NCBI RefSeq assembly: GCF_029581395.1
Contig: NZ_CP121113.1
Coordinates: 1,050,001 to 1,114,000 of the forward strand
Length of the DNA stretch: 64,000 nucleotides
Direction: 5' to 3'
DNA from: Roseinatronobacter sp. S2
GTDB lineage: Bacteria; Pseudomonadota; Alphaproteobacteria; Rhodobacterales; Rhodobacteraceae
The position numbers were made by a program, and so were the translations under genes. The notes beneath the pieces were generated by a model. That model was not told the origin of the DNA. It ran no database searches and saw only the letters and a list, made by a program, of their open reading frames with translations. The first letter of the stretch is position 1. Each line of letters begins with the position of its first letter. This document shows, piece after piece, positions 7,932 through 23,495 of the stretch.

Positions 7932-7974
7932 TTTGGCCTTTTCTGGTTTCAGGGAGGGCGGGGGTATTTTCAGC

Positions 7975-9466
7975 GTGGAACTTTACAGGAAGGTCCGCCT
8001 CGCGCGTCGGGGCGGTATGAGCGAACGGGCAGCAGCGAGCCATTTTGGGATATCGCGTGCGAGCGTGAAGAAGATGATGATGTTTTCGGTGCCGCCCGGC
8101 TACCAGCGAACGGCGGATATCAAGCGGCCCAAGCTGGACGGGTTCACCGGCTTCATTGACCAATGGCTGCAAGACGATCTGAACCGTCCCCGCAAACAGC
8201 GCCACACCGCCAAGCGCATCTTTGAACGGCTGCGCAACGAGCACCGGTTTCAAGGCAGCTATACGACGGTCAAGAACTATGTCCGCGAACATGGGCGGCG
8301 CAGCCGTGAGATGTTTGTGCCATTGGCACATGCCCCCGGCCATGCCCAAGCGGATTTCGGCGAGGCGATGGTCGTGATTGGCGGGGTTGAGCAGAAGGCG
8401 CATTTCTTTGCACTGGATCTGCCTTACAGCGATGCCTGCTTTGTTCGGGCTTATCCTGCGGCGGTCTCCGAGGCCTGGGTTGATGGTCATGTTCATGCTT
8501 TTGCATTCTTCGGCCGGGTTCCACAGTCGGTTCTTTATGACAACGATCGATGTCTGGTCGCGAAGATCCTGCCGGACGGCTCGCGCAAGCGGACCAAGCT
8601 GTTCAGTGGGTTCCTGTCGCATTACTTCATCCACGATCGTTATGGCCGACCGGGTAAGGGCAACGATAAAGGTGCCGTCGAGGGTCTGGTTGGATATGCG
8701 CGGCGCAACTTCATGGTGCCCATCCCTCATTTTGCAACATGGGAGGCGTTCAATCTCTGGCTGGAAGAGCAATGCCGTAAGCGCCAGTCAGATGTCTTGC
8801 GCGGATATGACGACAGCATCGGGCAACGACTGGCGCGCGATCTTGAAGCGATGATGGATCTGCCGGCGACTCCATTTGATGCCTGTGATCAGGCCAGTGG
8901 CCAGGTAAACTCACAATCCCTGGTGCGCTACAAAACCAATGATTACTCGGTGCCGGTTGCCTATGGCCACCGTGACGTCTGGATCCGGGGTTATGTCGAT
9001 CAGGTTGTCATCGGCTGTGGTGGCAATGTGATCGCCCGTCACCCCAGATGCTGGGACCGGGAGAATATGGTCTTTGACCCGGTGCCTTATCTACCCCTTT
9101 TGGAGCAAAAGACCGGGGCACTGGATCAGGCTGCCCCATTGGTGGAATGGGAGTTGCCAGAGGAATTTGCAACCTTGCGCCGCTTGATGGAGGCCCGCAT
9201 GATCAAGGCAGGTCTTTGCTACGTATGTGCAGGTCTTGCGGTTGTTGGAAACGTTCGAGATGGCCGATCTGAATATCGCCGTCAAAAATGCGCTGCGCAT
9301 GGGCGCGATTGGGTTTGATGCCATCAAGCATCTTGTCTTGTGCCAGGTCGAGAAGCGGCCACCCAAGCTGGATCTGGATATCTATCCGTATCTGCCACGC
9401 GCCAATGTCGGCACAACGTCAGCGGCCAGCTACATGTCCCTGATGAAGCGGGGGAAAGCCGCATGA
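7975..9466 (+). pseudogene. istA: IS21 transposase IstA, frameshifted near the C-terminus
   Basis: An IstA-type DDE transposase. The N-terminus from the GTG at 7975 reads VELYRKVRLARRGGMSERAA (the HTH domain). Catalytic positions are visible as HAQADFGEA, LYDNDRC and DKGAVEGLVG (D, D, E). One extra base near 9223-9228 shifts the frame: the first frame ends in an unrelated tail at 9318, while the expected C-terminus (VQVLRLLETFEMADLNIAVK, ending MSLMKRGKAA) continues in the other frame to 9466. The corrected gene overlaps istB by ATGA, as usual in the family. The GGGAGGGCGGGGG stretch upstream can serve as ribosome site. The element is probably non-autonomous now, unless the shift is a sequencing error. 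Confidence 0.85.
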
Positions 9467-10227
9467 CACAAGCCCCGCAAATCCTACTGGAGCATCGGCT
9501 CAAATCTCTCCGCCTGCCAACGGTGCTGCGAGAATATGGCAAACTGGCCCGCCAATGCGCCACAGAAGGGCATGACCATGCTCAGTTCCTCGCACGTTTG
9601 GTCGAACTGGAAATGATCGACCGTGAACGGCGGATGATCGAACGGCGCATCAAGACCGCGAAGTTCCCAGCTGTCAAAAGCCTGGACAGCTTCGAGTTCA
9701 AGGCGATCCCGGCCTTGAACAAGATGCAGGTTCTGGAGTTGGCGCGCTGCGAATGGATTGACCGGCGCGAGAATGTCATCGCACTCGGACCCTCAGGCAC
9801 CGGCAAGACCCATGTTGCTTTGGGACTTGGTCTATCTGCCTGTCAAAAAGGTCTTTCTGTCGGCTTTGTCACGGCTGCAGCGCTGGTTCACGAACTGATG
9901 GAGGCCAGAGACGAACGCAGGCTCTTGCGGCTTCAAAAGCAGATGGTGGGTTACAAGCTGCTGATCATCGACGAATTGGGCTTTGTGCCGCTCAGTAAAA
10001 CCGGGGCTGAATTGCTGTTCGAGTTGATCTCCCAACGCTACGAGCGCGGCTCCACGCTGATTACCAGCAACCTGCCATTCGACGAATGGACCGAAACCTT
10101 TGGGTCAGAACGCCTGACCGGCGCGCTGCTCGATCGCCTGACCCACCACGTCAACATCCTGGAGATGAACGGCGAAAGCTACCGACTTGGCCAGAGCAAG
10201 GCGCGTCAGACAACACCCAAAACCTAA
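9463..10227 (+). CDS. istB: IS21 transposition helper ATPase IstB
   Basis: A 254-residue AAA+ ATPase that assists the IstA transposase in target choice and strand transfer. Walker A is GPSGTGKTH (about residues 109-117), Walker B is LLIIDELGF (about 168-176), and SNLPFDEW (about 207-214) is typical of IstB/DnaC-like proteins. The ATG at 9463 overlaps the corrected istA stop by 4 bases, so upstream start codons in the same frame are disfavoured. The length is normal and the gene appears intact. Confidence 0.93.
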   Translation: MTQAPQILLEHRLKSLRLPTVLREYGKLARQCATEGHDHAQFLARLVELEMIDRERRMIERRIKTAKFPAVKSLDSFEFKAIPALNKMQVLELARCEWIDRRENVIALGPSGTGKTHVALGLGLSACQKGLSVGFVTAAALVHELMEARDERRLLRLQKQMVGYKLLIIDELGFVPLSKTGAELLFELISQRYERGSTLITSNLPFDEWTETFGSERLTGALLDRLTHHVNILEMNGESYRLGQSKARQTTPKT

Positions 10228-10378
10228 ACCACAATCCGCATCAATTGGCCCTGCCGGGCCAAGCATCCGGGCAACCGCCAGCTATATGACAAGCGCGGCC
10301 GCCCGGATGCTGACGCTCGTCTATACGCTGATTATCCCAACCCCAAAGTGGCAACATTTTGCACTGCCCTTTGGCTCA

Positions 10379-10545
10379 CTCTTACTCTGCCGTTGACATG
10401 TCGCGCACTCGCAAGCGCAACTGGCCGGTCAGCACCTTGAAACGATACTTGGTCGACCAGACAATGTGATAGCGGTGATAGAAAAACGCAGTGCTTGCCG
10501 GTGTCATACTGCATGATGGTATCCTCCCGTCTGGAAGACGGGGGG
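10379..10545 (-). mobile_element. IS200/IS605-type remnant (left-end hairpin plus tnpA start)
   Basis: On the minus strand a hairpin CCCGTCT-TCC-AGACGGG (about 10523-10541), typical of IS200/IS605 ends, is followed by a tnpA-like start. The residues YHRYHIVWSTKYRFKVLTGQ and LRLRVRD match the N-terminus of Y1 transposases, whose first strand ends in a WSTKYR-like motif. A frameshift in a T5 run separates the start MQYDTGKHCVF from the rest, and the gene stops where the IS21 right end begins (10378). Only about 40 codons remain, without the HUH motif or catalytic Tyr, so the element is dead. Confidence 0.75.
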
Positions 10546-10756
10546 GTGGTACCAGAGCGTGGATACTAAAAGCAGACATTCGGCCCCGTCTGCAGCATAA
10601 TGCCCGGTTCGGCCTTCATGGGTTTTAGCCGCTGATCAGTGGCATTCATCTTGCGCTTCAGTGACAAAACAAAATCAAACAGACTGTAGGCGATGTACCC
10701 GCATCTGAAAGCGGTGGGCAGCGAAACAGCTGCAAGTGAAGTGATCGGCATCGCTT

Positions 10757-12085
10757 CTAGCGCTCGCCCATAGCATCTTGGATCGTCCGGACGATTGGGG
10801 CAAAGAAATAGGTTATGATGCGACGTTCTTCAGTTTGCACGTCTATAGTTGCTGTCATACCTGGCCGAAGCTGGAAGCGATTGGTGCCTGCTGACAGATA
10901 TGTCGTGTCGGGTGAAATGCGCACGATGTAGCCCCAATTGTTATTTCCTGCGTCAGTCGAGTCGGCTGCGATATCATTAACTGCGCCCTGTACAAAACCG
11001 AACCGCTCAGAGGGATAAGCATCAAACCGGAGGTTTGCGCGTTGGCCAATTTCCATAAAGCCAATATCCTGATTGGAAAATACTCCCTCTAATTCGATTT
11101 CGACGTTCGTCGGCACTATTCGTAAGAGTTCCGCTCCTGTTTGAGCTACACCACCGATAGTAAAGGCGGACAACTGGTCCACAATGCCAGCAACAGGTGC
11201 GCGAAGTGTGGCCGCATCCACGCGACGTAACAGCGCGCGGGCTTCCTCTTGCACTGTTGCAAGGCGAGCCTCTATCTGGGTTCGCCGCTCGAGGTGTTTG
11301 CTACGCTGGTTCGCAAGTAACCGCCGCCTTTCCATAGCCAGCGCGCCACGATCAGCGGCCCGGCGATCAAGCTCGCGTAGATTGACCTCGCGTTCCCTCT
11401 CAAGATCAGTAAAAGCCTGCTGAACGTCAAGAAACGCGGCACGGCTCGTCGTGCCTTGGCCCAGAAGCTGCTCGGCAGTCGCGAGTCGGTCAGCTTGAAT
11501 TGCAAGGGCGGCATCGGTCCGGTCAATGCTGGCTCGTGTCACTGCCTCTGCTCGCAGATTGGCTTCATCTTGAGCTTCTATCTGTGCAAGCGCGGAGAAA
11601 AGGTCTGCAATCTCTGCGGCGAGAAGTTCGCGCTGCTCACGCGTATAGGCTGAATCTGCGATCTCAGATTGAATTTGTAATTTCGCATTGGCTGATGCTT
11701 CAGCTAAATCCCCGCTCTGTTCAGCAAAAGATATCACTTTGACAATTTCTTCAATTCGCGCCCGCTCGATGATCAGCCGTTCCTGCTCCGACTGCGTATT
11801 TGCCAGTTCGGCCTTTGCATCTGTTGCATCCAGTTCGATAAGGATGTCACCCCTCTCAACAGACGCTCCGTTGCCAACATGAATCGCATCGATTCTGCCG
11901 TAGAACTCCGGCTGGATGACTTGCACACGATTGACAGGAACGACACGGCCCTGACCGCGAGCAACCACCTCAACCGTGAAGAAAATCGAAATCGCAATGA
12001 CCGCCGAAAAAACTGCAATCGTAAACCAGATAGTTCCGTGCAGCGTGGGTGACCTCAGGTCCATTGGATCTGCTATGCCATTCAT
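10757..12085 (-). CDS. HlyD-family membrane fusion protein (type I secretion adaptor)
   Basis: A 442-residue periplasmic adaptor for the ABC exporter encoded just upstream. There is a single membrane segment at about 19-41 (TIWFTIAVFSAVIAISIFFT), then a lipoyl-like half (ARGQGRVVP..VQVIQPEFYG), a long alpha-hairpin/coiled coil rich in Glu and Arg (about 100-275), the second lipoyl half (LRAPVAGIVDQL) and a beta-barrel ending in MTATIDV. This order is standard for HlyD. Its start overlaps the exporter stop by 4 bases. Together with a TolC-like outer-membrane channel, not in the window, they would export the peptide encoded at 14017-14316. It is the last gene of the minus-strand operon. Confidence 0.9.
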   Translation of the reverse strand: MNGIADPMDLRSPTLHGTIWFTIAVFSAVIAISIFFTVEVVARGQGRVVPVNRVQVIQPEFYGRIDAIHVGNGASVERGDILIELDATDAKAELANTQSEQERLIIERARIEEIVKVISFAEQSGDLAEASANAKLQIQSEIADSAYTREQRELLAAEIADLFSALAQIEAQDEANLRAEAVTRASIDRTDAALAIQADRLATAEQLLGQGTTSRAAFLDVQQAFTDLEREREVNLRELDRRAADRGALAMERRRLLANQRSKHLERRTQIEARLATVQEEARALLRRVDAATLRAPVAGIVDQLSAFTIGGVAQTGAELLRIVPTNVEIELEGVFSNQDIGFMEIGQRANLRFDAYPSERFGFVQGAVNDIAADSTDAGNNNWGYIVRISPDTTYLSAGTNRFQLRPGMTATIDVQTEERRIITYFFAPIVRTIQDAMGER

Positions 12086-13734
12086 CTTAGCCCCGCAAAA
12101 TCAACAACCTGGTCGGGGTTCGGGAAAACGTCAGGGCTATGGGTGATGATAATCAGCGTCGCCTCTTCTTTCAGCGCCTGCAACTCTGTCGCCATCCGTT
12201 TTTGTGCCTCATAGTCGAGAGAGCTTGTCGGTTCATCCAGGATAATGACTTTTGGACGGCGCATCAAAGACCGGGCGATTGCGACGCGTTGGCGTTGACC
12301 ACCAGACAAGGCCGAACCACGTTCGCCAACCGGTGTGTCCAAGCCCAAGGGTAATTGCGCCACCAGATCTGCGGCGGCTGAAATGCGCAAGGCACGCGTC
12401 AGATCCGCATCATTGGCGTGATAATCCCCCAGCAACAGGTTGTCGCGCAGGGTGCCCGAGAAGAGATACGGTTCTTGTGGAATATACGCAATTTTCGAGC
12501 GCACATCATGCGGGTCGAATTCGGCAATATCCTCACCACCCAGCAAAACCTGCCCGTGGTCAGGTGTATCAATGCCTGAAGCCAGTCTGCCAAATGTCGA
12601 TTTGCCAATGCCAGAGGGGCCGACAACTAATGTCAGGCTATTCTGGGCTGCTTCAAAACAGAAGTTGCGCAAAATTGGGGTCGATGGGTCATAGGCAAAA
12701 TCGACATCTCTGAAGCTCAGCCTGTTTTCGACCTGCGCGGGCAGCTTGGGCAACGCATCGAATGGCTCTATCGGGGTATTGACGATATCCCCAAGCCGTT
12801 GACGCGACACGCGCACATTTTGCCATGTCTCCCAAAGCGCCGAGAAATTCTCGATGGGGCCAGTGACTTTTTGGGCCAAAAGGTGAAACGCGATCAGCTG
12901 CCCAAGGGTCAGATCGCCTGCAAATACAAGCTGGGCACCCACGTAGATGATACTGATCGTGATCGCTTGTTCGACCACGAATAGCATTTTGCTGCTCCAT
13001 ATATTCAAAATGCCTACGCGATAACCCGCTTTCAAACTGCCATGCAGGGTTTGGTCCAACCGCGCGAGCATCTGGCGTTCAGCGCCAAGTGCCTTGACCG
13101 AAGCGATGCCAGAGATGTTCTCGACCATCTGTGATTGGTGCTGCGCGCCTGCATCAAATTGCGCGCGCAAGCGGCGGCGCAGGAACGGGCCAAAACCGAA
13201 ATAGATCAGAAACTGGATCGGCAGAGCGACAAGGATGATCAGGGTCAGTTCTGTCGAAAGGGTGAACAACACCGCAATATACACAACTACGAAAACCAGA
13301 TCGAGGAAAACGCCCGTTGTTGTGCCGACCAGAAAGGCGCGGATCGTGTCGGTTTCGCTGACACGGGTGATGGTCTCGCCCACATTCCATTTGCGCGAAA
13401 AGCGGAAGGGCAGCTTGAACAGATGGTCAAAAATGCGCGCACCGAGTTCGCGGGTGACGCGGTTGGCGGTAAGCATGCCCAGAAGTTCGGACAGGATTTG
13501 AAAGCCCACCTGAAACAGGGCGACGGCGGCGAATATGGCCACGACAACGACCAGCGATGCTTCGCGCTGGAAGGGCAGGATGCGGTCGATGATGACCTGA
13601 AAGATGAACGGCTCCACCAACCCCAGAAGGCGCAGGCAGATGGCGAGGAAGATCAGCTCCAGATAGAAGGGCGTGAACTTCCACAGCGTTTTGCCGAACC
13701 AGGAGAGGGGGATTTCGTTTGAACTATTGCTCAT
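12082..13734 (-). CDS. HlyB-like ABC exporter without C39 peptidase domain
   Basis: A 550-residue ABC half-transporter with TMD then NBD. Six membrane helices occupy about residues 20-320, starting with FYLELIFLAICLRLLGLVEP and FIFQVIIDRILPF, which aligns with the point where HlyB/LapB membrane domains begin. The NBD has Walker A GPSGIGKST, signature LSGGQRQRVAIARS, Walker B VIILDEPTSSLD and an H-loop HSPD. The N-terminal C39 peptidase or C39-like domain of bacteriocin and RTX exporters is absent, so leader removal must be done by another protein. It is co-transcribed with the HlyD gene (4-base overlap) and with the small genes upstream. Confidence 0.92.
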   Translation of the reverse strand: MSNSSNEIPLSWFGKTLWKFTPFYLELIFLAICLRLLGLVEPFIFQVIIDRILPFQREASLVVVVAIFAAVALFQVGFQILSELLGMLTANRVTRELGARIFDHLFKLPFRFSRKWNVGETITRVSETDTIRAFLVGTTTGVFLDLVFVVVYIAVLFTLSTELTLIILVALPIQFLIYFGFGPFLRRRLRAQFDAGAQHQSQMVENISGIASVKALGAERQMLARLDQTLHGSLKAGYRVGILNIWSSKMLFVVEQAITISIIYVGAQLVFAGDLTLGQLIAFHLLAQKVTGPIENFSALWETWQNVRVSRQRLGDIVNTPIEPFDALPKLPAQVENRLSFRDVDFAYDPSTPILRNFCFEAAQNSLTLVVGPSGIGKSTFGRLASGIDTPDHGQVLLGGEDIAEFDPHDVRSKIAYIPQEPYLFSGTLRDNLLLGDYHANDADLTRALRISAAADLVAQLPLGLDTPVGERGSALSGGQRQRVAIARSLMRRPKVIILDEPTSSLDYEAQKRMATELQALKEEATLIIITHSPDVFPNPDQVVDFAGLR

Positions 13735-13792
13735 CTAAAGCAAAATAAAGTCAAATGAGCACGTTATATCTGGAATTGGCATTCTGACCTGA

Positions 13793-13948
13793 CTATCGAA
13801 ATGCAATTGCAACAAGCATACCAGTAATAACTCCCGCAGCTACGCAGGCATTGTTCAAATCTTTATTGGGCTCTATACGGCGCGCGATAAGTTTTGCAAT
13901 ATAGTAGCCAACGACCGAAAAAATAGCAGCTAGGACATAGTTAACCAA
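13793..13948 (-). CDS. 51-residue membrane protein, candidate immunity protein
   Basis: A small gene with a TTG start at 13948, chosen because AAGGGAG lies 7 bases upstream. The protein has two hydrophobic helices, VNYVLAAIFSVVGYYIAKLI and ACVAAGVITGMLVAIAF, joined by a basic, polar turn (ARRIEPNKDLNN). It lies between the precursor-like peptide gene and the ABC exporter in the same operon. Bacteriocin operons often carry such tiny membrane immunity proteins next to the precursor gene, which is the basis of the guess; there is no homology evidence. It could also be an accessory export component. Confidence 0.55.
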   Translation of the reverse strand: MVNYVLAAIFSVVGYYIAKLIARRIEPNKDLNNACVAAGVITGMLVAIAFR

Positions 13949-13986
13949 TGCACTCTCCCTTCTTGACACGTGCAAAAAACGATAAT

Positions 13987-14006
13987 GGGGCACCCGGAGG
14001 TGCCCC
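13987..14006 (-). terminator. Hairpin after the precursor peptide gene (partial terminator)
   Basis: A perfect 8-bp stem GGGGCACC / GGTGCCCC with a 4-base loop lies 11 bases past the stop of the 99-residue peptide gene on the minus strand. It is followed by ATTATCGTTTTTT. Such leaky terminators behind bacteriocin precursors commonly give high precursor expression with reduced read-through to export genes. Confidence 0.6.
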
Positions 14007-14016
14007 GGTATTTGGG

Positions 14017-14316
14017 TTACGGCGCTGTCATCATCCCGTCGTATGAAGCTGAAGTGCTCAAAGACCCAACACAAGCCTCGTATGTAGCGTAGCCAACTGC
14101 ACCTCCAGCGGCCAAACCTGTATTGGGTGACTTAGTTGCGCCGCCGACAACTGTGGCAGTCGCGCCGCCGGCAACCGCACCAAGGGCAGCGCACGCTGCC
14201 TTCTCAGCATGATTAACATTCCGACCACCGCCACCATTGCCACCGCCGCCACCACCGCCGCCAAAGCTGATGTTCCCATAAAGATCGTTCATCACTTTCA
14301 CGAGCTCTTGTGACAT
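14017..14316 (-). CDS. Polyglycine precursor-like peptide, candidate bacteriocin/microcin
   Basis: A 99-residue peptide with a good ribosome site (AAGGAAG, 6 bases before ATG). Residues 1-18 (MSQELVKVMNDLYGNISF) resemble a helical leader. Residues 19-31 are almost all Gly (eight Gly, Asn, four Gly). Residues 39-84 form a glycine-zipper-like hydrophobic core (ALGAVAGGATATVVGGAT, LAAGGAVGYATYEACVGS) with two Cys at about 42 and 81. The tail is Ser/Thr-rich (SLSTSASYDGMMTAP). Double-Gly leader, Gly/Ala core and Ser-rich tail recall class II microcins, but I recognise no specific homologue. It sits in an operon with an ABC exporter, HlyD and a HlyC-like acyltransferase fusion. Function is inferred from context. 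Confidence 0.65.
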   Translation of the reverse strand: MSQELVKVMNDLYGNISFGGGGGGGGNGGGGRNVNHAEKAACAALGAVAGGATATVVGGATKSPNTGLAAGGAVGYATYEACVGSLSTSASYDGMMTAP

Positions 14317-14373
14317 TTCTGTCTTCCTTACTGTTACCGCGCGGATATAATTGCCGCTGCGACGTCGCTGTAT

Positions 14374-14395
14374 GCCGGGCTTTCCTTCGCCCGGC
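14374..14395 (-). promoter_or_regulatory. Hairpin in the 113-base gap before the precursor gene
   Basis: GCCGGGC and GCCCGGC form a perfect 7-bp stem with an 8-base loop between the 76-residue gene and the precursor peptide gene. It could be a terminator, an mRNA processing site or part of a separate promoter region for the precursor. No T-run follows, so the role is open. Confidence 0.3.
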
Positions 14396-14429
14396 GGTTC
14401 AACCGGGTGGAGGGTTCATCATCAACCCT

Positions 14430-14660
14430 TCACCCATTTTCGCCTGACATTAACCAGACGAAACCTTGACTGGCGCCGACAGCGCCAGGCGTAGCTGACC
14501 GACATGGTCGGGCTGTCCAATGCATAGACTTGATGGAACCACCCAGCTGGCTGGACCAGCAAGTCTCACGGTTCTCAAAGCTACCGTTCAAAAAATTGAT
14601 GAACCCTTTGCCCGATTGTTCCATGCAATCTAAATAAGTCTTTGGATATTCTACATTCAT
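14430..14660 (-). CDS. 76-residue protein of the peptide cluster, function unknown
   Basis: The start ATG (14660-14658) overlaps the stop of the peptidase/acyltransferase gene by 4 bases (ATGA), which argues it is real and translationally coupled. The protein (MNVEYPKTYLDCMEQSGKGF at the start) has three Cys at about 12, 34 and 53 and an aromatic-rich middle, with no signal peptide or membrane segment. It could be a partner or leader-binding subunit of the modifying enzyme, or a second substrate. I do not recognise a family. Confidence 0.5.
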   Translation of the reverse strand: MNVEYPKTYLDCMEQSGKGFINFLNGSFENRETCWSSQLGGSIKSMHWTARPCRSATPGAVGASQGFVWLMSGENG

Positions 14661-16189
14661 GCAACGACCTGCCTGCGCTGGCGGATCGCTGCGCCTGTCC
14701 AGCGGCTCACGCGGCGCACTGAACCGTCCATGTTGCGGCGCAGACTGGTTGCAGTCTGGTCAGGGAAAATGTTGTGGGTCATGTCATGGGCCACTTCCCG
14801 AATGTTCCCATAGGGCGTGATCCAGTCGTTGAAGAACAGCCGGTCGCCGCAGTTCCATTCTTCATGTGACAGCGCTCTACCTGATGCATGAACTTCACGC
14901 TCGACCTCAGCAGAAAGCCAAGCCCATGTCACCATCGCTGCCGGTACCCCGTCTTCGGTGACATAGAAGCGGCACTGTCCAGACCAGAGTGCCGGAAGGA
15001 TTTCAGTTCTAAAGTAATCTCCTAGCTGATGCTTCCCGTGATATGGGGATTGCGCAAGCAACTCGAGTGCATAGCCAGCACTAGGATTGAACGAAGACCT
15101 GCCTGTCTCGTGTTGTAGATGGCGATTTAGCGCGGATTGCAGTTCAAGATGATCTCCGAATGGCGCAGCTTGTCGGGTCAAAGTGATCTTGTTCGCAGAA
15201 GGTGGCTTGATCCAGGTCGCATAGCCCAGCGGCCTGTCGTGAAGATCAAGCGCTATGAATGCCGTTTGATCCCGCATATGGCCAAGCCATGTTTGATAAA
15301 CCTCTCCGATTGGTTTTTCGGAAACGCCTTTTCTGTATTCAGTCTCCAGAAGTGTCATCGCGCCAAGGCTGCGGTAGGGCCCGAGTGCTGGCAGGTCTTG
15401 GTCAGATCGTTGTAAAGCAGGCAAATAATTCGCAAATGTACCCGCCTTGCTGGCCATTTTCTCCACTGGCAGATGAGCCATCGCATCCTCGCCAGATGCA
15501 AACAGGCTTGTAAGCCACTCACCCCGGCCTTGCATAAACAATGCGCAAGCGAGCAATCGTGCAACAGGATAGTTTTGCCGATAGTGATACGGAGCTTTTG
15601 TTGCTTGCAAGGCTGCTTTCAGACTGTCCAGGTCGCGACCGAGGTAAAGCGCATTCTGGTCTTCCCATGCGCCCAGAAGTAACTCGAGAAGCCTTGGGTT
15701 TCTGTGCTTCTTTACATGAGAAATGAGAAGCAGTTCTCCAAGAAATGCACAGACTTCGCGCGCAAGTGGTGGCATATACGCCCCGCGTGACAAGGTGATC
15801 TGAACAGCATGCGCTACTTCATGTGCAAGAGTGAGAAGATCTGTCGGCTTTCCTGTCCATTGCAGGACCAGAACCGGCACCCGGCCAGGACCACGGTTAA
15901 TTGTGCAGGGATGGTTTGTCTCGCATTCTGCTGGTTCGCGGATCCGTATCCGCGCCAACGCTTCGCCAATTGCACCGCAGTTCTGGAACGCATCTTGAAA
16001 GGCGGGTCGGATAAGGTCTGACAGCGCTTTATCAAGAGGCCCGAGGCTTTCTGCTACTTCACCGGAGGGCGCCGCGCGAGTAAATGGCGGGTGTACGCGA
16101 AGTGCGCCAGCGTTATACGCCAATACAACGTCTGCTAACACATCTTCAGTTATCTCGTGAAGTTCTAACCACTCTTCGAAACTATGCAT
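14657..16189 (-). CDS. M3-peptidase-like / HlyC-type acyltransferase fusion protein
   Basis: About 510 residues from the ATG at 16189, chosen over the GTG at 16207 because AGGAG lies 6 bases upstream. The N-terminal part has TLAHEVAHAVQITL (zinc motif HEVAH, residues 123-127), followed about 20 residues on by REVCAFLGELLL (E145), the layout of M3 oligoendopeptidases. The C-terminal part (about 370-495) resembles HlyC-type toxin-activating acyltransferases: LLAQSPYHGKH (H384 as candidate catalytic His), ILPALWSGQCRFYV, VTWAWLSAEVE and RLFFNDWITPYGNIREV (D455). HlyC acylates lysines of RTX toxins; HlyC-like MceI/MchD act with MceJ/MchC to modify class IIb microcins. One protein here may both cleave and acylate the 99-residue peptide. 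That coupling is inferred; the fusion itself is read directly. Confidence 0.75.
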   Translation of the reverse strand: MHSFEEWLELHEITEDVLADVVLAYNAGALRVHPPFTRAAPSGEVAESLGPLDKALSDLIRPAFQDAFQNCGAIGEALARIRIREPAECETNHPCTINRGPGRVPVLVLQWTGKPTDLLTLAHEVAHAVQITLSRGAYMPPLAREVCAFLGELLLISHVKKHRNPRLLELLLGAWEDQNALYLGRDLDSLKAALQATKAPYHYRQNYPVARLLACALFMQGRGEWLTSLFASGEDAMAHLPVEKMASKAGTFANYLPALQRSDQDLPALGPYRSLGAMTLLETEYRKGVSEKPIGEVYQTWLGHMRDQTAFIALDLHDRPLGYATWIKPPSANKITLTRQAAPFGDHLELQSALNRHLQHETGRSSFNPSAGYALELLAQSPYHGKHQLGDYFRTEILPALWSGQCRFYVTEDGVPAAMVTWAWLSAEVEREVHASGRALSHEEWNCGDRLFFNDWITPYGNIREVAHDMTHNIFPDQTATSLRRNMDGSVRRVSRWTGAAIRQRRQVVA

Positions 16190-16451
16190 GCAAGCTCCTA
16201 AAAGCACAACACTCTAAAAACAATCTTAGGTTGCAATTACGCTGCAACAGAGAAATGCGTGATGTCAAGAATAGTTCTTTTGCAAAATTAATTGCTGAAC
16301 CAAATATATAAGCTTTAAGCGTGATCTTGCCGATTTCACCCCAAACACCTTGCAGTCTTGACTTGCTTAGAACACAATCCTGACGTGTATTTCGAACCCC
16401 ACGCCGCGGTGCTCCAACGGTAAAATGGCCTGATAACGAGTGCGATCAAAC

Positions 16452-16745
16452 ATGATAAAGATAGTGAACTCGTCGTCGTTTAGTGGTGAACGCCCTGAAA
16501 GGCGCACAGTTGCCAAACAGCAACTCTTCAACCGGAGTGATCAATCATTATTTTCACGATATGAAGACTGGGAGCGTCTGATATGCAGGTTGTTTCAGAT
16601 AAAACTGCAGCAAATATGCAAGGTAGAGAATGTTTTACCTGACAAAGCATATACTATAGATGAGCATCCGCTTAAGTTCTCGATGCAGCCATTTTATGTG
16701 CATAATTCAACTAATATTTGCTTTGTTAAAAATCCGAGCTCATGA
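16452..16745 (+). CDS. Small hypothetical protein upstream of M16 genes
   Basis: A 97-codon frame ending in TGA that overlaps the ATG of the following M16 gene (ATGA), the same tight arrangement seen throughout the cluster. The product is charged and polar without signal peptide. Codon use is AT-rich compared with the genes after it, and there is no clear ribosome site, so it may be spurious. The rest of 16208-16451 holds the divergent promoter region; I see no gene there. Confidence 0.3.
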   Translation: MIKIVNSSSFSGERPERRTVAKQQLFNRSDQSLFSRYEDWERLICRLFQIKLQQICKVENVLPDKAYTIDEHPLKFSMQPFYVHNSTNICFVKNPSS

Positions 16746-18043
16746 GGGCCACTGTAAGATCAAGTGCTATCTCAATTCTTGTGCTAGGCTTCTTGGGCCT
16801 GGCGGGTTGGGTCATCGCGTCCCAAAAGTTGCGGGTATCGCATTACATTACCCCCACAGACCGCGCGGGTCAGGTGCAGGTTATTTTGCGGATCGCGCGG
16901 CCCTTTGATCCGGATGAACAGGTGGGCATTGCCCATTATGCCGAGCATCTGGCGTGGTACGCAGCAATCGGCGAAGAGGCACGCGGCCCGGACCGGCATT
17001 CGGGCGCGTGGACCAGCCATCGTGCTATTTCCTACAGTCTGACCGGGCGATCTGAGGATTTGGCTGAAATGACTGCGACCCTTGCGCGTGTATTCGAACC
17101 AATCAATCTACCCGTCCGCTTCGCCGAGGAAGAGCGGAACATCATCCAGCGCGAGTATAACTCGGTGCTTGGCCAGAGTATCAGCGGCCGTGCTGAAGAG
17201 GCTTTGTTTGGCGTCCTGCATGCGGGCACACAGCTTGGCCCCTCGATCATTGGCACTCCTGAGCAGATTGATGCCTTGGAATATGACGCCGCACGCGCCT
17301 ATCATCTGGCCACGCATACCCCCGAAAACGCAGCGTTTATCTTTCGTGGCGATGTTGGGCGTTTGCAGGTCTGGCGTGCGCTGATGGGGCTGCAACTTGA
17401 TCTGACGGGCGAAAAACCTGTGCCGTCCGGCTATAACATGGGGCCGGACCTTGTGCATCTGGCCGAATTCCCTGACCCCAGTGCCGCACCGCGCATGATC
17501 TGGCGGCAGGTGGTTGCTCTGGATGCGCCAGTGCCCTTTGACCTGCTGCAAGCGCAGCTTGATCATCTGCGCGCCATGCTGGACACCAACCTGCCCGGGG
17601 GCTTGGCGGGTCCCTTGCGATTTGATGCCAAACTTGCGCGGGAGTTCCGCCTTAACCTGATCGCGATTGACGAGCAGCATGTTGAGTTGCGCTTTCAGGC
17701 CAGCCCTGATGCCGGTGTCAGCCTGCCAGACCTGCGCGCCGCGTTCGAAACCGTTCTGGCAGATAGCGCCGCCGCGGGCATCCCCGCGCCAACCTATAAC
17801 CGCGTGATGGCGCGCATGGAAAGCTATTGGCCTGACTGGGATGACCGTAACAAGGCCCGCCGGTGGGTGGCCGATTACACCACTGCCCGTGTTTTGGCGC
17901 TGCGCGACCCGCTGAGTGCCCGCGCCCTGCGCCAGATCAAGCCACAAATCACCCGCGACAGCCTAAACGCACTCTTGACCAACCTTTCCAAAGCCAGCCG
18001 CACGGCCATCGCCTTCATCGGACCACAGGAGAGTTTTGAATGA
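16742..18043 (+). CDS. M16 zinc protease, catalytic subunit, membrane-anchored or secreted
   Basis: A 433-residue M16 (pitrilysin-type) peptidase. An N-terminal hydrophobic segment (about 9-26, AISILVLGFLGLAGWVIA) acts as signal or anchor. The inverted zinc motif HYAEH is at 65-69 and the third ligand is E138 in RNIIQREYN, the expected spacing. It overlaps the next M16 gene by 4 bases. Active/inactive M16 pairs form heterodimers that trim small peptides, PqqF/PqqG on PqqA being the known case. It is divergent from the peptide operon, so a role in maturing or degrading the exported peptide is likely but inferred. Confidence 0.88.
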   Translation: MRATVRSSAISILVLGFLGLAGWVIASQKLRVSHYITPTDRAGQVQVILRIARPFDPDEQVGIAHYAEHLAWYAAIGEEARGPDRHSGAWTSHRAISYSLTGRSEDLAEMTATLARVFEPINLPVRFAEEERNIIQREYNSVLGQSISGRAEEALFGVLHAGTQLGPSIIGTPEQIDALEYDAARAYHLATHTPENAAFIFRGDVGRLQVWRALMGLQLDLTGEKPVPSGYNMGPDLVHLAEFPDPSAAPRMIWRQVVALDAPVPFDLLQAQLDHLRAMLDTNLPGGLAGPLRFDAKLAREFRLNLIAIDEQHVELRFQASPDAGVSLPDLRAAFETVLADSAAAGIPAPTYNRVMARMESYWPDWDDRNKARRWVADYTTARVLALRDPLSARALRQIKPQITRDSLNALLTNLSKASRTAIAFIGPQESFE

Positions 18044-19398
18044 TCCGTTTCGCCCTTGCCCTACCGCTTGTTCTTGGCCTGTCATTTTGCGAGGGCGACC
18101 AGTCCCCGGTGGCCACAGATCAGACCAGCCCAAATGGCACATCCTACCGCCTGATCCAGATGCCGGGCAATGATTACGCTGCAATTCTGGCCGCTTGGCC
18201 CAATGACTGGGCGTGGCAAGCAGGGCGGAACCCAACTACGCCCTATATTGGGGCCGAACTGATCCTGGCGGGCGGTGCGACAGGATATCCAGCAGGCGAA
18301 GTGGTTGAGCGCTTTGCCGATATGGATGCTGAAGGGGTTCTGGCGGTGAGTGCTGACCACCTGTATGGCCGGATCGTTAGCAAAAAGCAGGATCTTTCTG
18401 AAGCAATCACCATTGCCAATGCACATCTGACGCAACCCAGCTTCGACGACGAGTGGTTTGAGCGCATCCGGACGAGTTTCACACAAAGCATGGCTGAGGC
18501 GCAATCACAGACCATGCACCAAGGGTTTGAGGCATTGCGTTGGGCCGTCTTGGGTGAACAGCCTGTGCGGAAAATGCTGTCGCTGGATGATTCTGCCCAA
18601 TTTGCTGCGCTGTCGTTGGATGATCTGCGCGCATGGCACAGCGCCACGGTCACGGAGCAGCCCGAAGCAGTGGTGATCACAGGCGACGTGACGCCTGAAC
18701 AGGCGGGTGCTGCCCTTGACCAGCTTTTTGCAGGCCTGCCAGCAGACAACGCTGATACGCACGAAGTCACGCTGGATTACCGGCCACGCCAGATATTGCT
18801 GCACCTGCCCGATGCGACCGATGCACACCTCACCTTCATCGCGCCCCTGCCAGCCACCCGCAACGGCGGCGATCTTGAGGATCAGATCCTTGTCAATGCT
18901 CTGGGCGGCGATGAAGACAGCGTGTTGTTCGCAACTGTACGCGACGGGCTTCGCGCCAGCTACAGCTTTGATGCCGGGGTCGCCAATTATACGCGCGAAA
19001 ACCGTTTTCTGTTAATGGCCGGCACGCTGGAAGCCGATAAGCTAAATGACGCCGTGGATTTGGTACGGGATGCCTATACTGGGTTCCGCTCCACTGGCCC
19101 CGATGGTGACATTAATGACCGCAAAGAGCCGTGGCGTGCAGCTTTTGAGGAAAACCGCAATTATGTGGTCGATCAGGGCCGAATGGAGCTTGAGACCACA
19201 CTCGACGGGTTCGCCACAGGCCATTCGCTAACCACACTCGACATGCTCGACGCTCTGACTGCCACCGACTTGCGCAACCGCCTGCGCGATCACTGGCCAG
19301 ATGCGCAGGATTTCGTGATAATGGCTGTCTCGCCTGATGCAGATGCCCTTCCAGGGGCATGCGTGATCACACAGCCCGAAGAAGCGAAGGACTGTTGA
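18040..19398 (+). CDS. M16 protease-like protein lacking the zinc motif (partner subunit)
   Basis: A 452-residue M16-fold protein. The N-terminus MIRFALALPLVLGLSFC looks like a signal peptide, possibly with an atypical lipobox Cys at 17. At the place of HxxEH it reads GAELILAGGATGYPAGEV, so it cannot bind catalytic zinc. The conserved C-terminal M16 elements remain, for example LNDAVDLVRDAYTGF and LRDHWPDAQDFVIMAV. This is the usual inactive partner that completes the M16 chamber. The start overlaps the catalytic subunit's stop by 4 bases. Confidence 0.87.
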   Translation: MIRFALALPLVLGLSFCEGDQSPVATDQTSPNGTSYRLIQMPGNDYAAILAAWPNDWAWQAGRNPTTPYIGAELILAGGATGYPAGEVVERFADMDAEGVLAVSADHLYGRIVSKKQDLSEAITIANAHLTQPSFDDEWFERIRTSFTQSMAEAQSQTMHQGFEALRWAVLGEQPVRKMLSLDDSAQFAALSLDDLRAWHSATVTEQPEAVVITGDVTPEQAGAALDQLFAGLPADNADTHEVTLDYRPRQILLHLPDATDAHLTFIAPLPATRNGGDLEDQILVNALGGDEDSVLFATVRDGLRASYSFDAGVANYTRENRFLLMAGTLEADKLNDAVDLVRDAYTGFRSTGPDGDINDRKEPWRAAFEENRNYVVDQGRMELETTLDGFATGHSLTTLDMLDALTATDLRNRLRDHWPDAQDFVIMAVSPDADALPGACVITQPEEAKDC

Positions 19399-19960
19399 CT
19401 CAGACTACCCTCAGGAAGTCTTCAATGAGACGGCTTCACAAGCGTTTTTTCGATCTGTTCCTCGAAGGCGCCAAAAAAGCCACGACGGGTAAGACGGTTT
19501 GCAACGATGCTGCCGGCAATATGCTGCGCGAGGCCTGAATGGCCGCTTCGACGCTCCCAGGTCGTTTGCCCAACTGTCAGCAAAGGGCCGGGCGTGTCGC
19601 GCACGACGACGATGACCCGCGACTTTGCAAATTCAGCTAGCTGCCACAAGTCGCCGGTCCCTCTGTCGTGCGGCGTTCGCCAAAGCGGTCACTCGGGCAA
19701 GGGGCAGCGACGGACTGTTGCCAGCCTCATTGCGGACGGTCACGCAGGGTGCGGCATCTGCAGGGTCATAGACAGACAGGGCGGTAAGCCGTCTGTGAGT
19801 TTGCCGCATGGCAACCGCATCATCTTGGAAAAGCCGTCATTCGCGCCATGCTGCGGCTCCGGTGTTCGCACGATCCCGCTCAAGCATATTCCTGCATATT
19901 GCCCAGCAGAATGCCGGTCATCGAAAGATCAGCAACATCCCGGTCAATCGCGTCCACCCT
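19399..19960. other. Region without a supported gene
   Basis: Short frames exist on both strands, but none has a recognisable domain or convincing ribosome site. The stretch 19726-19760 shares an imperfect repeat (CATTGC.GACGGTCA.GCAG) with 23584-23610, so this looks like degraded intergenic DNA. Confidence 0.5.
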
Positions 19961-21332
19961 AACAGGGCGCTGAAATAGTCCCTGAGCCGGAAGGCTGTCC
20001 CTTCATCAGGGCTGGGTCGGGGGATTGCGATGTCTGTCGGCGCGTTCGACATACGCGCCAGGTGCGGTTCTTCCGCGTCACACAGCCAGCAACCGGGGCA
20101 GTCTTGCGAGGTTGTTGGCGGCCATTGTCAGGATGAACCGCGACCGGACGCGATCGACGCCGCGATACATGGTCTGTGCCATGCCGCCGACGGTTTTCGC
20201 CCAGCCGAACGCCTCTTCAATTTTCTTTCGGTGCTTCTGGGACAGGGCGTAACCGGCATGTCGGGTGGTTCGGCCATCGATTGCTGAATATCTCGTTTTC
20301 TGGGCGATATGGGGCGTGACGCAGGCTTTGCGCAGGTCGGCAACGAACCCACCCGCGTCATACCCCTTGTCGGCCCCCAGCGTCATCTGCCGGGTCGATC
20401 CAGGGGAATGGCGATGAACCATGTCCAGGGCGGCCGTACGTTCGGCATGGCCGTCAGCCTGGGTCAGGTCGCCTTGCACGATCAGCCCACTCCGGTTCTC
20501 CATCAGCGCATGCCCGATGAAGCAAAGCATCGCCCCGGTGCCCGGGGACTTCTTGTAAAGGCGCGCGTCCGGGTCGGTGGTCGAGGCGTGGGTGGCATTG
20601 GACCGTTTCTCGCCCTTGAAATCGACTTCGGCATTGCGGTGGGGTTTGGTGGTGCGGGGCATCGGGTCGGTCTCGGTTGGGGGTCTCGGAAGGCGCGGGC
20701 TCAAGCGTGGCATCTGGGGCGAGTGGATCGCATGGCCCGTCATCGTCAGGCGGGGTGGTCTCTGCCTTCGGCTGGAAGCTCTTCATCGACGCCCAAGCCT
20801 TCACCAGCGTGCCATCGACCGAGAAGTGGTCGTCCGACAGAAGCGGCGCGACCTCGCGATGGGCCAGAATCGCCGCCATCACCTTGCGCGACATCTGCGT
20901 GCTCAGCAGCCGGTCGCGGTTCTTCGTGAAGACGGTCGGGACCCAGACGGGATCATCGATACCCAGCCCGACAAACCAGCGGAACATCAGGTTGTAATTC
21001 ATCTGCTCCATCAACTGACGCTCGGATCGGACCGAGAACAGGAGTTGCAGCAGGCTGGCCCGGATCAGCCGTTCCGGCGGGATCGAAGGGCGGCCGAAAT
21101 CGGTGTAAAGCGCCTCGAACTCGGCATCGAGACTGGCGAGCGCGTCATTCACCACCTGACGGATCTTGCGCAAAGGGTGCCGCACCGGAATGCGCTCCTC
21201 CAGATCAACATAGCTGAACAGCGACCCGCTCGTCCCGTCCGTCCCGCGCATCGTCACCCCCGCCGTTACAGTGCAAAGAGTGAATCATGTTCTCAAACCG
21301 CTGTCGAGACAGGACTATTTCAGCGGCCTGTT
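19961..21332 (-). mobile_element. IS5-superfamily-type insertion sequence
   Basis: About 1.37 kb bounded by inverted repeats: AACAGGGCGCTGAAATAGTC at the left, and at the right the complement of GACTATTTCAGCGGCCTGTT. It encodes one transposase in two frames. The right end interrupts a dinB-like gene. The bases outside the two ends (CTAA left, TTAG right) are not direct repeats, so the exact boundary and any target duplication are uncertain. Confidence 0.85.
20078..21257 (-). pseudogene. IS5-type DDE transposase split by a frameshift
   Basis: The N-terminal part (from 21257, MTMRGTDGTSGSLFSYVDLE) contains the helical domain and SDDHFSVDGTLVKAWAS with the first catalytic Asp. The C-terminal part in another frame contains GADKGYDAGGF (second Asp) and KKIEEAFGWAKT with the catalytic Glu. 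The frames cross near 20680 in a CCCCC run (SETPNRDRP in one frame, PPTETDPMPR in the other). A single-base shift there restores one protein of about 390 residues. Programmed frameshifting occurs in some IS5 relatives, so it may be functional, a pseudogene or a sequencing error. Confidence 0.85.
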
Positions 21333-22862: not shown

Positions 22863-23495
22863 GTGACTTCTATCAACCTTTCTGCCATTCGGGCGCGCCG
22901 CTCTGCATGGAACAAGGGCCGACTCGTGGGGCAAAAGCGTCCCCTTCTGCCAAAGCATGTCTGGGCGATTCGGGTGCGCCTTGAACTTGCGGAACGCCAT
23001 CGTGACCTAGCGCTGTTCAATATGGCAATCGACAGCAAGTTAAGGGGCTGCGACCTCGTTCGCCTGCGCGTCCCTGATATCTACGCTGCTGGCCAGGTGA
23101 AGGAGCGGGCCGCGATAACCCAAAGCAAGACCTCTCAGTCTGTTCGTTTTGAGATCACGGCCGGGACGCGGGCATCGCTGAAAGCGTGGATTGAGTCGCC
23201 GCAGATGTTGGGATCAGAGCACCTGTGGCCCGGGCGTTTGCACGACAGAGCACACATTTCAACGAGGCAATATGCCCGGCTGGTGCGGGAGTGGGTGACG
23301 TCCATTGGGCTTGAGCCAAGTACTTATGGCACACATTCCATGCGGCGCACCAAGGTTGCGCAGATCTATCGTAAGACTGGCAACTTGCGCGCGGTTCAGC
23401 TCTTGCTCGGTCACACCAAGATGGACAGCACGGTTCGGTATCTCGGTGTGGATCTTGAGGATGCGCTGACAATCTCGGAAGGGGTGGAAATCTGA
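22863..23495 (+). CDS. Short tyrosine recombinase (catalytic domain only)
   Basis: A 210-residue recombinase with all catalytic positions: R61 (SKLRGCDLVRLR), K89 (TQSKTSQSVRF), H158 and R161 (GTHSMRRTK), H184 (LLLGHTKMDSTVRYLG) and Y193. The N-terminal core-binding domain of normal integrases is missing. Such short forms are widespread in alphaproteobacteria, and the frame is intact. No attachment site, tRNA or partner excisionase is adjacent, so what it recombines is unknown. Upstream, 22578-22862 holds no gene I recognise. Confidence 0.88.
   Translation: MTSINLSAIRARRSAWNKGRLVGQKRPLLPKHVWAIRVRLELAERHRDLALFNMAIDSKLRGCDLVRLRVPDIYAAGQVKERAAITQSKTSQSVRFEITAGTRASLKAWIESPQMLGSEHLWPGRLHDRAHISTRQYARLVREWVTSIGLEPSTYGTHSMRRTKVAQIYRKTGNLRAVQLLLGHTKMDSTVRYLGVDLEDALTISEGVEI

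Follow-up and report, generated by a model that had tools for sequence, protein, structure and literature searches.

Gene content of the cluster

We analyzed a gene cluster at positions 10757 to 19398 of a 64,000-nucleotide stretch of the Roseinatronobacter sp. S2 genome (hereafter, the window), which an original prediction, made from the letters alone, had singled out as a candidate bacteriocin- or microcin-like modified-peptide system. The cluster is real beyond chance: its core genes recur in other genomes, and the RNA element upstream of its peptide gene covaries. It belongs to a family of gene clusters that is scattered and apparently undescribed, and we consider it probable that the product of this family is a microcin-like bacteriocin that is modified after translation and secreted.

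On the reverse strand lies the gene for a fusion enzyme (14657-16207), in which residues ~8-257 form a PepF/M3-like HExxH metallopeptidase domain, residues ~270-335 are weakly HlyC-like, and residues 373-516 form a HlyC-like acyltransferase domain. It is followed by a 76-residue open reading frame (ORF; 14430-14660), a remnant of a JmjC/Cupin_8 hydroxylase gene, and by a structured RNA element (14317-14453) that comprises hairpins H1 (14435-14405), H2 (14395-14374), and H3 (14362-14337) and then a ribosome-binding site. Behind the element lies the gene for a 99-residue precursor peptide (14017-14316), whose leader (14257-14316; MSQELVKVMNDLYGNISFGG) precedes a poly-Gly run and a hydrophobic, Gly-rich core with two Cys residues. 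Next on this strand are a terminator-like hairpin 3' of the precursor gene (13987-14006; eight pairs, seven of them G-C); a 51-residue membrane protein with a TTG start and two hydrophobic segments, a candidate immunity protein that we refer to as the two-helix protein (13793-13948); an ABC exporter without a C39 peptidase domain (12082-13734); and a HlyD-type periplasmic adaptor (10757-12085; TIGR01843, 304 bits against a cut-off of 208.65). A divergent unit on the forward strand encodes M16a (16742-18043; PF00675), an active-type M16 metallopeptidase with an N-terminal hydrophobic segment that is probably periplasmic, and its lipoprotein-like partner M16b (18040-19398; PF05193).

The exporter without C39, the adaptor, the 51- and 99-residue ORFs, and the HlyC-bearing ORF are all located where the original prediction had placed them, and the Pfam/NCBIfam matches agree with its assignments (HlyD type I adaptor; ABC_membrane and ABC_tran; HlyC at 1.6e-29), including those for the divergent protease pair (Peptidase_M16 and M16_C). 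The precursor, the 51-residue ORF, and the 76-residue ORF match no Pfam/NCBIfam family above cut-off. The tight four-base overlaps that had been noted are present at three gene junctions (12082-12085, 14657-14660, and 18040-18043), as is the hairpin after the peptide gene. The same scan found 11 terminator-like sites in total versus 9.7 expected in shuffles, so the reading of this hairpin as a terminator rests on its position and strength.

Recurrence in other genomes

With an aligned set of HlyC domains as the query against named genomes, we obtained 37 loci from Rhodobacteraceae (in the wide sense), Pannonibacter, Hyphomicrobiales, Halomonas/Vreelandella/Litchfieldella, Leucothrix, and Marinomonas. 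These loci, which span at most 10 kb on each side and many of which end at contig ends, make up 38 sources together with the window and were annotated by BLAST against the proteins of the window and its relatives. The original prediction had staked itself on the genes occurring together elsewhere, and they do: HlyC, the bait, is present in all 38 sources, the peptidase domain in 37 (the exception is L083), and a precursor adjoining the enzymes in 33 (29 identified by pattern, plus L048, L049, L065, and L071). The precursors of L074, L076, L080, and L083 were recognized by patterns added after seeing them, and the RNA element is also present in L074 and L080; no precursor was recognized in L064, L075, L078, and L079, and L066 is cut by a contig end. 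Close exporter genes were found in 24 of 38 sources for ABC (at least 40% identity) and 24 of 38 for HlyD (at least 30%), M16a in 19, M16b in 18, and JmjC/Cupin_8 in 19, counting the window remnant; AspH (3 sources), DUF2927 (2), and DUF4344 (1) are rarer. The closest of the loci compared, L047 from Roseinatronobacter sp. HJB301, has the same arrangement as the window, including a divergent M16 pair (HlyC 84% identical over 108 residues, M16a 72%, M16b 77%).

A protein search with the window enzyme listed 46 proteins, its own included. The combination of peptidase and HlyC was found in 6 of 292 genomes of the order, again with its own (G000, G084, G174, G065, G277, and G272); 163 of the 292 match at E<=0.001, and beyond the six the match covers one domain only, in many cases in a distant HlyC or in a long protein of PepF size. 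At the class level, 7 of 385 genomes match at E<=1e-12, one of them the window's; in the six others, the matching region is confined to the HlyC part and its surroundings (29-35% identity). A first scan of genome contigs with the single protein as query gave no match.

Amylibacter marinus (L081:8549-15945) has a divergent version with a one-frame peptidase-HlyC gene, a precursor with NEG repeats, a TPM/DUF4344 putative metallopeptidase, a 2OG-Fe(II) oxygenase, and an ABC/HlyD pair of another kind; the RNA model gave no hit there. Sinorhizobium meliloti pSymB (L122:5406-9402) may carry a minimal relative, with ABC (44% identity), HlyD, and HlyC (31.5%) genes and, on the opposite strand, a Gly-rich ORF that has no annotation and a small ORF for a membrane protein.

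The peptidase-acyltransferase enzyme

The fusion of an M3-like and a HlyC-like domain, as originally described, exists in the window; however, it is not general, as the two domains are separate neighboring genes in most relatives. The peptidase domain retains HExxH and Glu158 in at least 93% of 33 aligned sequences, that is, HExxH with a downstream Glu ligand in the fold of the M3 metallopeptidases, to which Dcp also belongs. Unlike oligoendopeptidase F and other M3 peptidases, it comprises the catalytic part only (~250 residues) and is joined or adjacent to an acyltransferase.

The acyltransferase domain matches PF02794 at 102.8 bits against a cut-off of 25. His18 and Asp89, which we take to be the catalytic residues, are retained in at least 93% of 38 aligned sequences; an alignment with ApxC was also made. 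The fold and the positions of this His/Asp pair are like those of the toxin-activating acyltransferases HlyC and ApxC, but the apparent partner here is a small leader peptide rather than an RTX protein, no lysine is conserved in the peptide, and RTX-like ORFs are present in only 2 of 38 sources. Acylation of the small peptide by this domain is predicted. A fusion of HlyC with an aspartyl/asparaginyl beta-hydroxylase, present in two database proteins (P0041 and P0042) and at L065:1044-2366, ties acyltransfer to hydroxylation.

The precursor peptides

We located 40 precursors through the RNA element and numbered their positions relative to the SFGG serine, a residue that is invariant by design of the search pattern; two precursors (L094 and L095) are truncated, and that of L053 may extend to the contig end. 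The 40 share a leader, D-L-x-x-x-x-S-F-G-G-(G)n, behind which the cores are hypervariable: Asp is found at position -6 in 37 precursors, Leu at -5 in 38, and Phe at +1 in 38. SFGG closes the leader in most of the 40 and is usually followed by poly-Gly, which masks any double-glycine cleavage site of the kind that ends the N-terminal signal of class II microcins. Behind the leader we found Gly-zipper hydrophobic cores, hydrophilic tails (those of L058, L060, and L113 all end in DWDGR), and, in the precursors after elements L057:11575, L063:13036, and L073:17079(-), tails with a CxxCH motif that resembles the sites where c-type haem is attached. The CxxCH precursors of L057 and L073 adjoin a DUF2927-like protein.

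Inspection by eye, rather than an alignment-based test, of 33 full precursors revealed neither a shared C-terminal motif nor the Gly- and Ser-rich C-terminal region that marks class IIb microcins, according to the available text of PMC9746304. A C-terminal modification as in microcin E492 was rejected, because no shared C terminus was seen. As in ribosomally synthesized and post-translationally modified peptide (RiPP) systems, a leader-bearing precursor is encoded next to modifying enzymes. One genome (G017) contains three scattered copies of element plus leader (L093-L095), two of them with truncated precursors that adjoin a repeated ORF, acetyltransferase-like by eye, and its HlyC is a 76-residue remnant only; these copies are a system in decay.

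The RNA element upstream of the precursor gene

A covarying, multi-hairpin RNA element lies directly before most precursors. The 28 upstream regions that we aligned form two hairpins in which 14 of 18 base pairs show changes in both partners. Paired cells reach 92.0% versus 79.9% in shuffles and double changes 66 versus 19.9, values that none of 500 shuffles attained for either measure, and pairing drops to 30-50% when the structure is slid; further pair types, one of five covariation measures, showed no excess over shuffles (25 versus 24.8). Covariation was computed for H1 and H2. The third hairpin, with a TARCA-like loop, lies 5' of the ribosome-binding site and shows no more than a suggestive tendency to fold (mean z -1.5, with 21 of 35 below -1, against mononucleotide shuffles). 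In many elements, including the one in the window (14312-14323, reverse strand), a short GACA...TGTC hairpin would also enclose the precursor start codon.

A covariance model built on the first two hairpins matches 30 of 38 sources with a total of 35 strong, full-length hits (E<=3e-10), of which 7 are outside the training set, and has a single full-length hit in the window's genome. Within the family, the model hits 4 of 295 genomes, the window's own included; it also hits 17 of the 20 locus-holding genomes searched (covering 20 of the 37 loci), with five hits outside known loci. Thirteen of the 15 untrained hits that we inspected (G894:C57 is outside the 15) lead into a leader-bearing precursor: six, among which L048 and L049 are near-copies, three, two of them truncated, and four, among which L113 has a variant leader. 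The other two are L066, at a contig end, and G867, with no recognizable precursor. No Rfam 15 family scored above its gathering score in window positions 10000-20000, the best being Collinsella-1 (E 0.17, 19.1 versus 35 bits).

The JmjC gene and other hydroxylases

What the original prediction listed as a 76-residue protein does not come from an intact gene. Many relatives have a JmjC/Cupin_8 gene, in most cases of 373 residues, that overlaps the stop codon of HlyC and terminates immediately upstream of the RNA element; in L047 a JmjC gene of 387 residues stands at the place of the remnant. When this L047 protein was compared with the window by tblastn, its first 46 residues matched at 30% identity and its last 30 at 77%, in different frames; thus, the ORF, with its N-terminal ~46 codons and an out-of-frame C-terminal piece, was rejected as a real protein and is a frameshifted remnant. 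The JmjC protein of L035 matches PF13621 at 5e-28, and an AlphaFold2 model of the JmjC protein (pLDDT 86) is closest to JMJD5, followed by JMJD7 and FIH, all of them protein hydroxylases. Among 17 aligned relatives, HxD is retained in 14, the Lys in 16, and the distal His in 15; a broken iron site (SxD for HxD) was considered and rejected, the motif having been mis-assigned. AspH-type hydroxylases replace or accompany JmjC in three loci (L065, L073, and L082), and about half of the loci have a hydroxylase of one type or the other.

Export and M16 proteins

Peptidase_C39 is absent from all 23 aligned ABC proteins, the window's included, and from three divergent ones; in L083, ~190 residues without a family match precede the membrane domain. 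Since C39 is absent, the exporter is apparently unable to cut the leader, and the peptidase domain is the obvious substitute. The one C39 match of the genome lies elsewhere, at C1:903360, where a C39-type ORF of 753 residues (G000:C1:903360-904972) adjoins a TolC-family ORF. TolC/OEP-family proteins are encoded outside the cluster.

M16a has HYxEH in 18 of 18 aligned sequences, the window's included, and M16b retains Cys17 of a lipobox-like motif in 15 of 16; both look periplasmic. M16a is divergent in the window and L047 and lies within the operon in most other loci that have it. In L057, L073, and L081, DUF2927- or DUF4344-type proteins are found near the precursor in place of M16.

Co-segregation of the core and the two-helix gene

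In five loci of Halomonadaceae (10 pairs), the precursor core and the two-helix gene behind it co-segregate, and they do so without regard to the enzymes. The pair with the closest enzymes, L062/L072 (peptidase 82%, HlyC 92%, M16a 85% identical), has cores only 43% identical (z 5.2) and two-helix proteins at chance level (z 1.6); likewise, L061/L071 (82, 76, and 86%) have cores at 51% (z 9.7) and two-helix proteins at z 1.4. On the other hand, L061/L062 and L069/L072, with more distant enzymes, have cores 74 and 73% identical (z 27 and 26) and two-helix proteins at z 10.4 and 20.6. Elsewhere, the JmjC and ABC proteins of L056 and L059 are 94-95% alike and the core is not shared, and three tandem precursors in L050 share a repeat of 279-342 bp (JmjC 3' end, RNA element, and leader; 88-95% identity) and then diverge. 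A downstream two-helix ORF (40-100 residues) follows 18 of 22 precursors with a hydrophobic core and 3 of 18 others (Fisher test, 8e-5, with cut-offs picked after inspecting the data). Co-segregation of this kind is what a bacteriocin-immunity cassette predicts, and it suggests a candidate immunity role for the two-helix protein.

Genomic setting and phylogeny

The cluster is flanked by an IS21 pair (7933-10227, forward) and a split transposase (20078-21257, reverse), and a phage-type integrase (22863-23495, forward) and a tRNA-Met gene (2857-2933, forward) lie nearby; it is perhaps part of a mobile island. On a HlyC tree of 36 rows, the label of the seven gammaproteobacterial rows needs three changes, and branches with good support force two of the three; Marinomonas sits on a long branch. 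Phage carriage was rejected, as viral contigs had no match to the patterns of the protein or to one exact RNA pattern. So was plasmid carriage: none of the 154 matching plasmid records covers 80% of the fusion enzyme.

Proposed mechanism and alternatives

We propose that the conserved leader would be recognized in the cytoplasm by the peptidase/HlyC enzyme, whose zinc peptidase would cut at or near the junction of leader and poly-Gly, replacing the protease of a C39 exporter, and whose HlyC domain would acylate the peptide or add a related group. An oxygenase of the JmjC or AspH type may hydroxylate the peptide as well in about half of the relatives, JmjC having been lost in the window genome. 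The ABC-HlyD pump and a TolC-type channel would export the product; the M16 pair, where present, may trim it in the periplasm or destroy peptide that re-enters; and the small two-helix protein would protect the producer. The structured RNA may tune precursor translation or mRNA stability. Together with the leader and the JmjC 3' end, it would form a constant segment through which new cassettes of core and immunity gene recombine in; the window remnant would fit such an entry via the repeat, with most of the JmjC gene deleted. A more specific version, which we offer tentatively and regard as rather unlikely, is "cut and cap": the M3-like domain would cleave off the leader where it meets poly-Gly, and HlyC, whether fused to it or adjacent, would N-acylate the newly exposed glycine, yielding N-acyl-Gly lipopeptide bacteriocins.

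Several observations weigh against the bacteriocin reading. Lysine is missing from 4 of 40 precursors entirely and from 19 after the leader, which sits poorly with a lysine acyltransferase; because of the former, RTX-style lysine acylation cannot be universal, and lysine was rejected as a universal acylation site. Seven exporter-bearing loci (L048, L049, L060, L063, L074, L075, and L076) have no recognized M16, DUF2927, or DUF4344 protein. The five Halomonadaceae cores all retain some likeness (z at least 5.2 in 10 of 10 pairs), and the two-helix proteins of L069/L071 and L071/L072 are intermediate (z 5.2 and 4.9); thus, the swap is not all-or-none. Fifteen of the 18 less hydrophobic precursors lack a candidate immunity gene, three of them with CxxCH, and therefore not all cargo need be toxin. 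Finally, the window copy may be decaying, its JmjC gene lost and insertion sequence (IS) elements lying on either side. A cluster that is a decaying remnant in the window genome and functional in relatives seems to us somewhat unlikely: the fusion of peptidase and HlyC would also fit it, but the other genes are open with their catalytic residues intact, and JmjC seems optional, as only 18 of the 37 other loci (some of them cut) have a match.

The same precursors without an immunity candidate, together with the NEG repeats of the L081 precursor (outside the 40) and the DWDGR-ending tails, would suit a non-toxic secreted peptide, such as a signal, a metal or haem carrier, or an adhesive Gly-rich peptide, made by the same enzymes with the two-helix protein as an export helper. 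We find this unlikely, because an export helper would be expected to track the exporter, not the core, and toxin-immunity pairs typically show this kind of cargo exchange together with a variable membrane partner gene. Another point against our proposal is that an HExxH enzyme encoded in a RiPP cluster can be an oxygenase instead of a protease, and the pfl cluster has a GNAT acyltransferase gene as well (in the available text of PMC12636437). An alpha-ketoglutarate-dependent oxygenase like PflC or ChlB would hydroxylate or oxidatively cleave the peptide, and the HExxH domain has a weak structural match to 8s5f, the ChlB HExxH domain (Foldseek E 0.07, probability 0.95); Pfam and NCBIfam scans listed no HEXXH oxygenase family model at E<=1, and we hold this alternative to zinc peptidase to be improbable. 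That the locus is an orphan RTX-toxin activation and secretion locus with the toxin elsewhere is very improbable. HlyC, ABC, and HlyD do make up the RTX export set; among 279 related protein clusters at E<=1e-25, the named ones in the best 120 are mostly called toxin- or cytolysin-activating lysine-acyltransferase; and RTX-like repeats occur in L063 and L082. However, 36 of 38 sources have no RTX-like ORF by a crude repeat pattern within the at most 10 kb on each side that the loci span, a small precursor lies beside the enzymes in 33 of 38, and HlyC is tied to the peptidase domain in 37 of 38.

Relation to known systems and significance

The analogy to class IIb microcins holds in part. HlyC-family enzymes are documented in the clusters of these siderophore microcins (MceI/MchD; available text of PMC3281104), which also resemble the present system in a small Gly-rich exported peptide, an ABC exporter with a HlyD-type adaptor, and a small, immunity-like membrane protein. 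It fails at the C terminus, which has no shared motif, and at the exporter; the leader also differs, and an extra peptidase, the M16 pair, the hydroxylases, and the RNA element are present here. No MchC/MceJ-like gene was noticed in the clusters, although no dedicated search was made. Class II microcins are defined with C39 peptidase-containing ABC transporters (available text of PMC9746304), which the cluster lacks, and we therefore classify it as an enzyme-modified, microcin-like bacteriocin system and not as a class II microcin. Class II microcin systems also have a membrane fusion protein with TolC and a small, adjacent membrane protein for immunity; here the cluster encodes a HlyD adaptor, OEP-family proteins elsewhere in the genome may be its partners, and the two-helix protein is the immunity candidate. 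Class II microcin loci of Serratia marcescens likewise have a toxin-activating acyltransferase and a peptidase annotated as Dcp, but their ABC exporters contain peptidase domains and they have MchC- and nonribosomal peptide synthetase-like genes; a peptidase-acyltransferase enzyme, this leader family, and the RNA element were not seen for them in the available text of PMC13101503. The pfl/pos RiPP clusters share a HEXXH enzyme (PflC), a GNAT-family acyltransferase, and a leader-bearing precursor, but differ in their unrelated leader (NHLP), their MNIO enzyme, and the HEXXH family (available text of PMC12636437). We found no description of the present gene set in the open-access literature searched, in line with the original prediction. 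What is new is the shared leader, a covarying RNA without an Rfam match, the co-segregation of core and two-helix gene, and a hydroxylase in about half of the loci.

If our proposal is true, enzyme-modified, microcin-like bacteriocins extend to Rhodobacteraceae, Hyphomicrobiales, and Halomonadaceae, and a set of HlyC genes that are labelled as RTX-toxin activators would gain a likely role (279 protein clusters at E<=1e-25, with labels read for the best 120 and genomic context for the loci analyzed here). The leader, the RNA tag, and the peptidase-acyltransferase would serve as handles for finding more such peptides. If the enzyme does cut the leader and acylate the exposed glycine, it would be a bacterial analogue of N-myristoylation, with variable cores that plug in behind a constant RNA-leader cassette. 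A small system with one substrate would make the role of microcin-associated HlyC enzymes directly testable.

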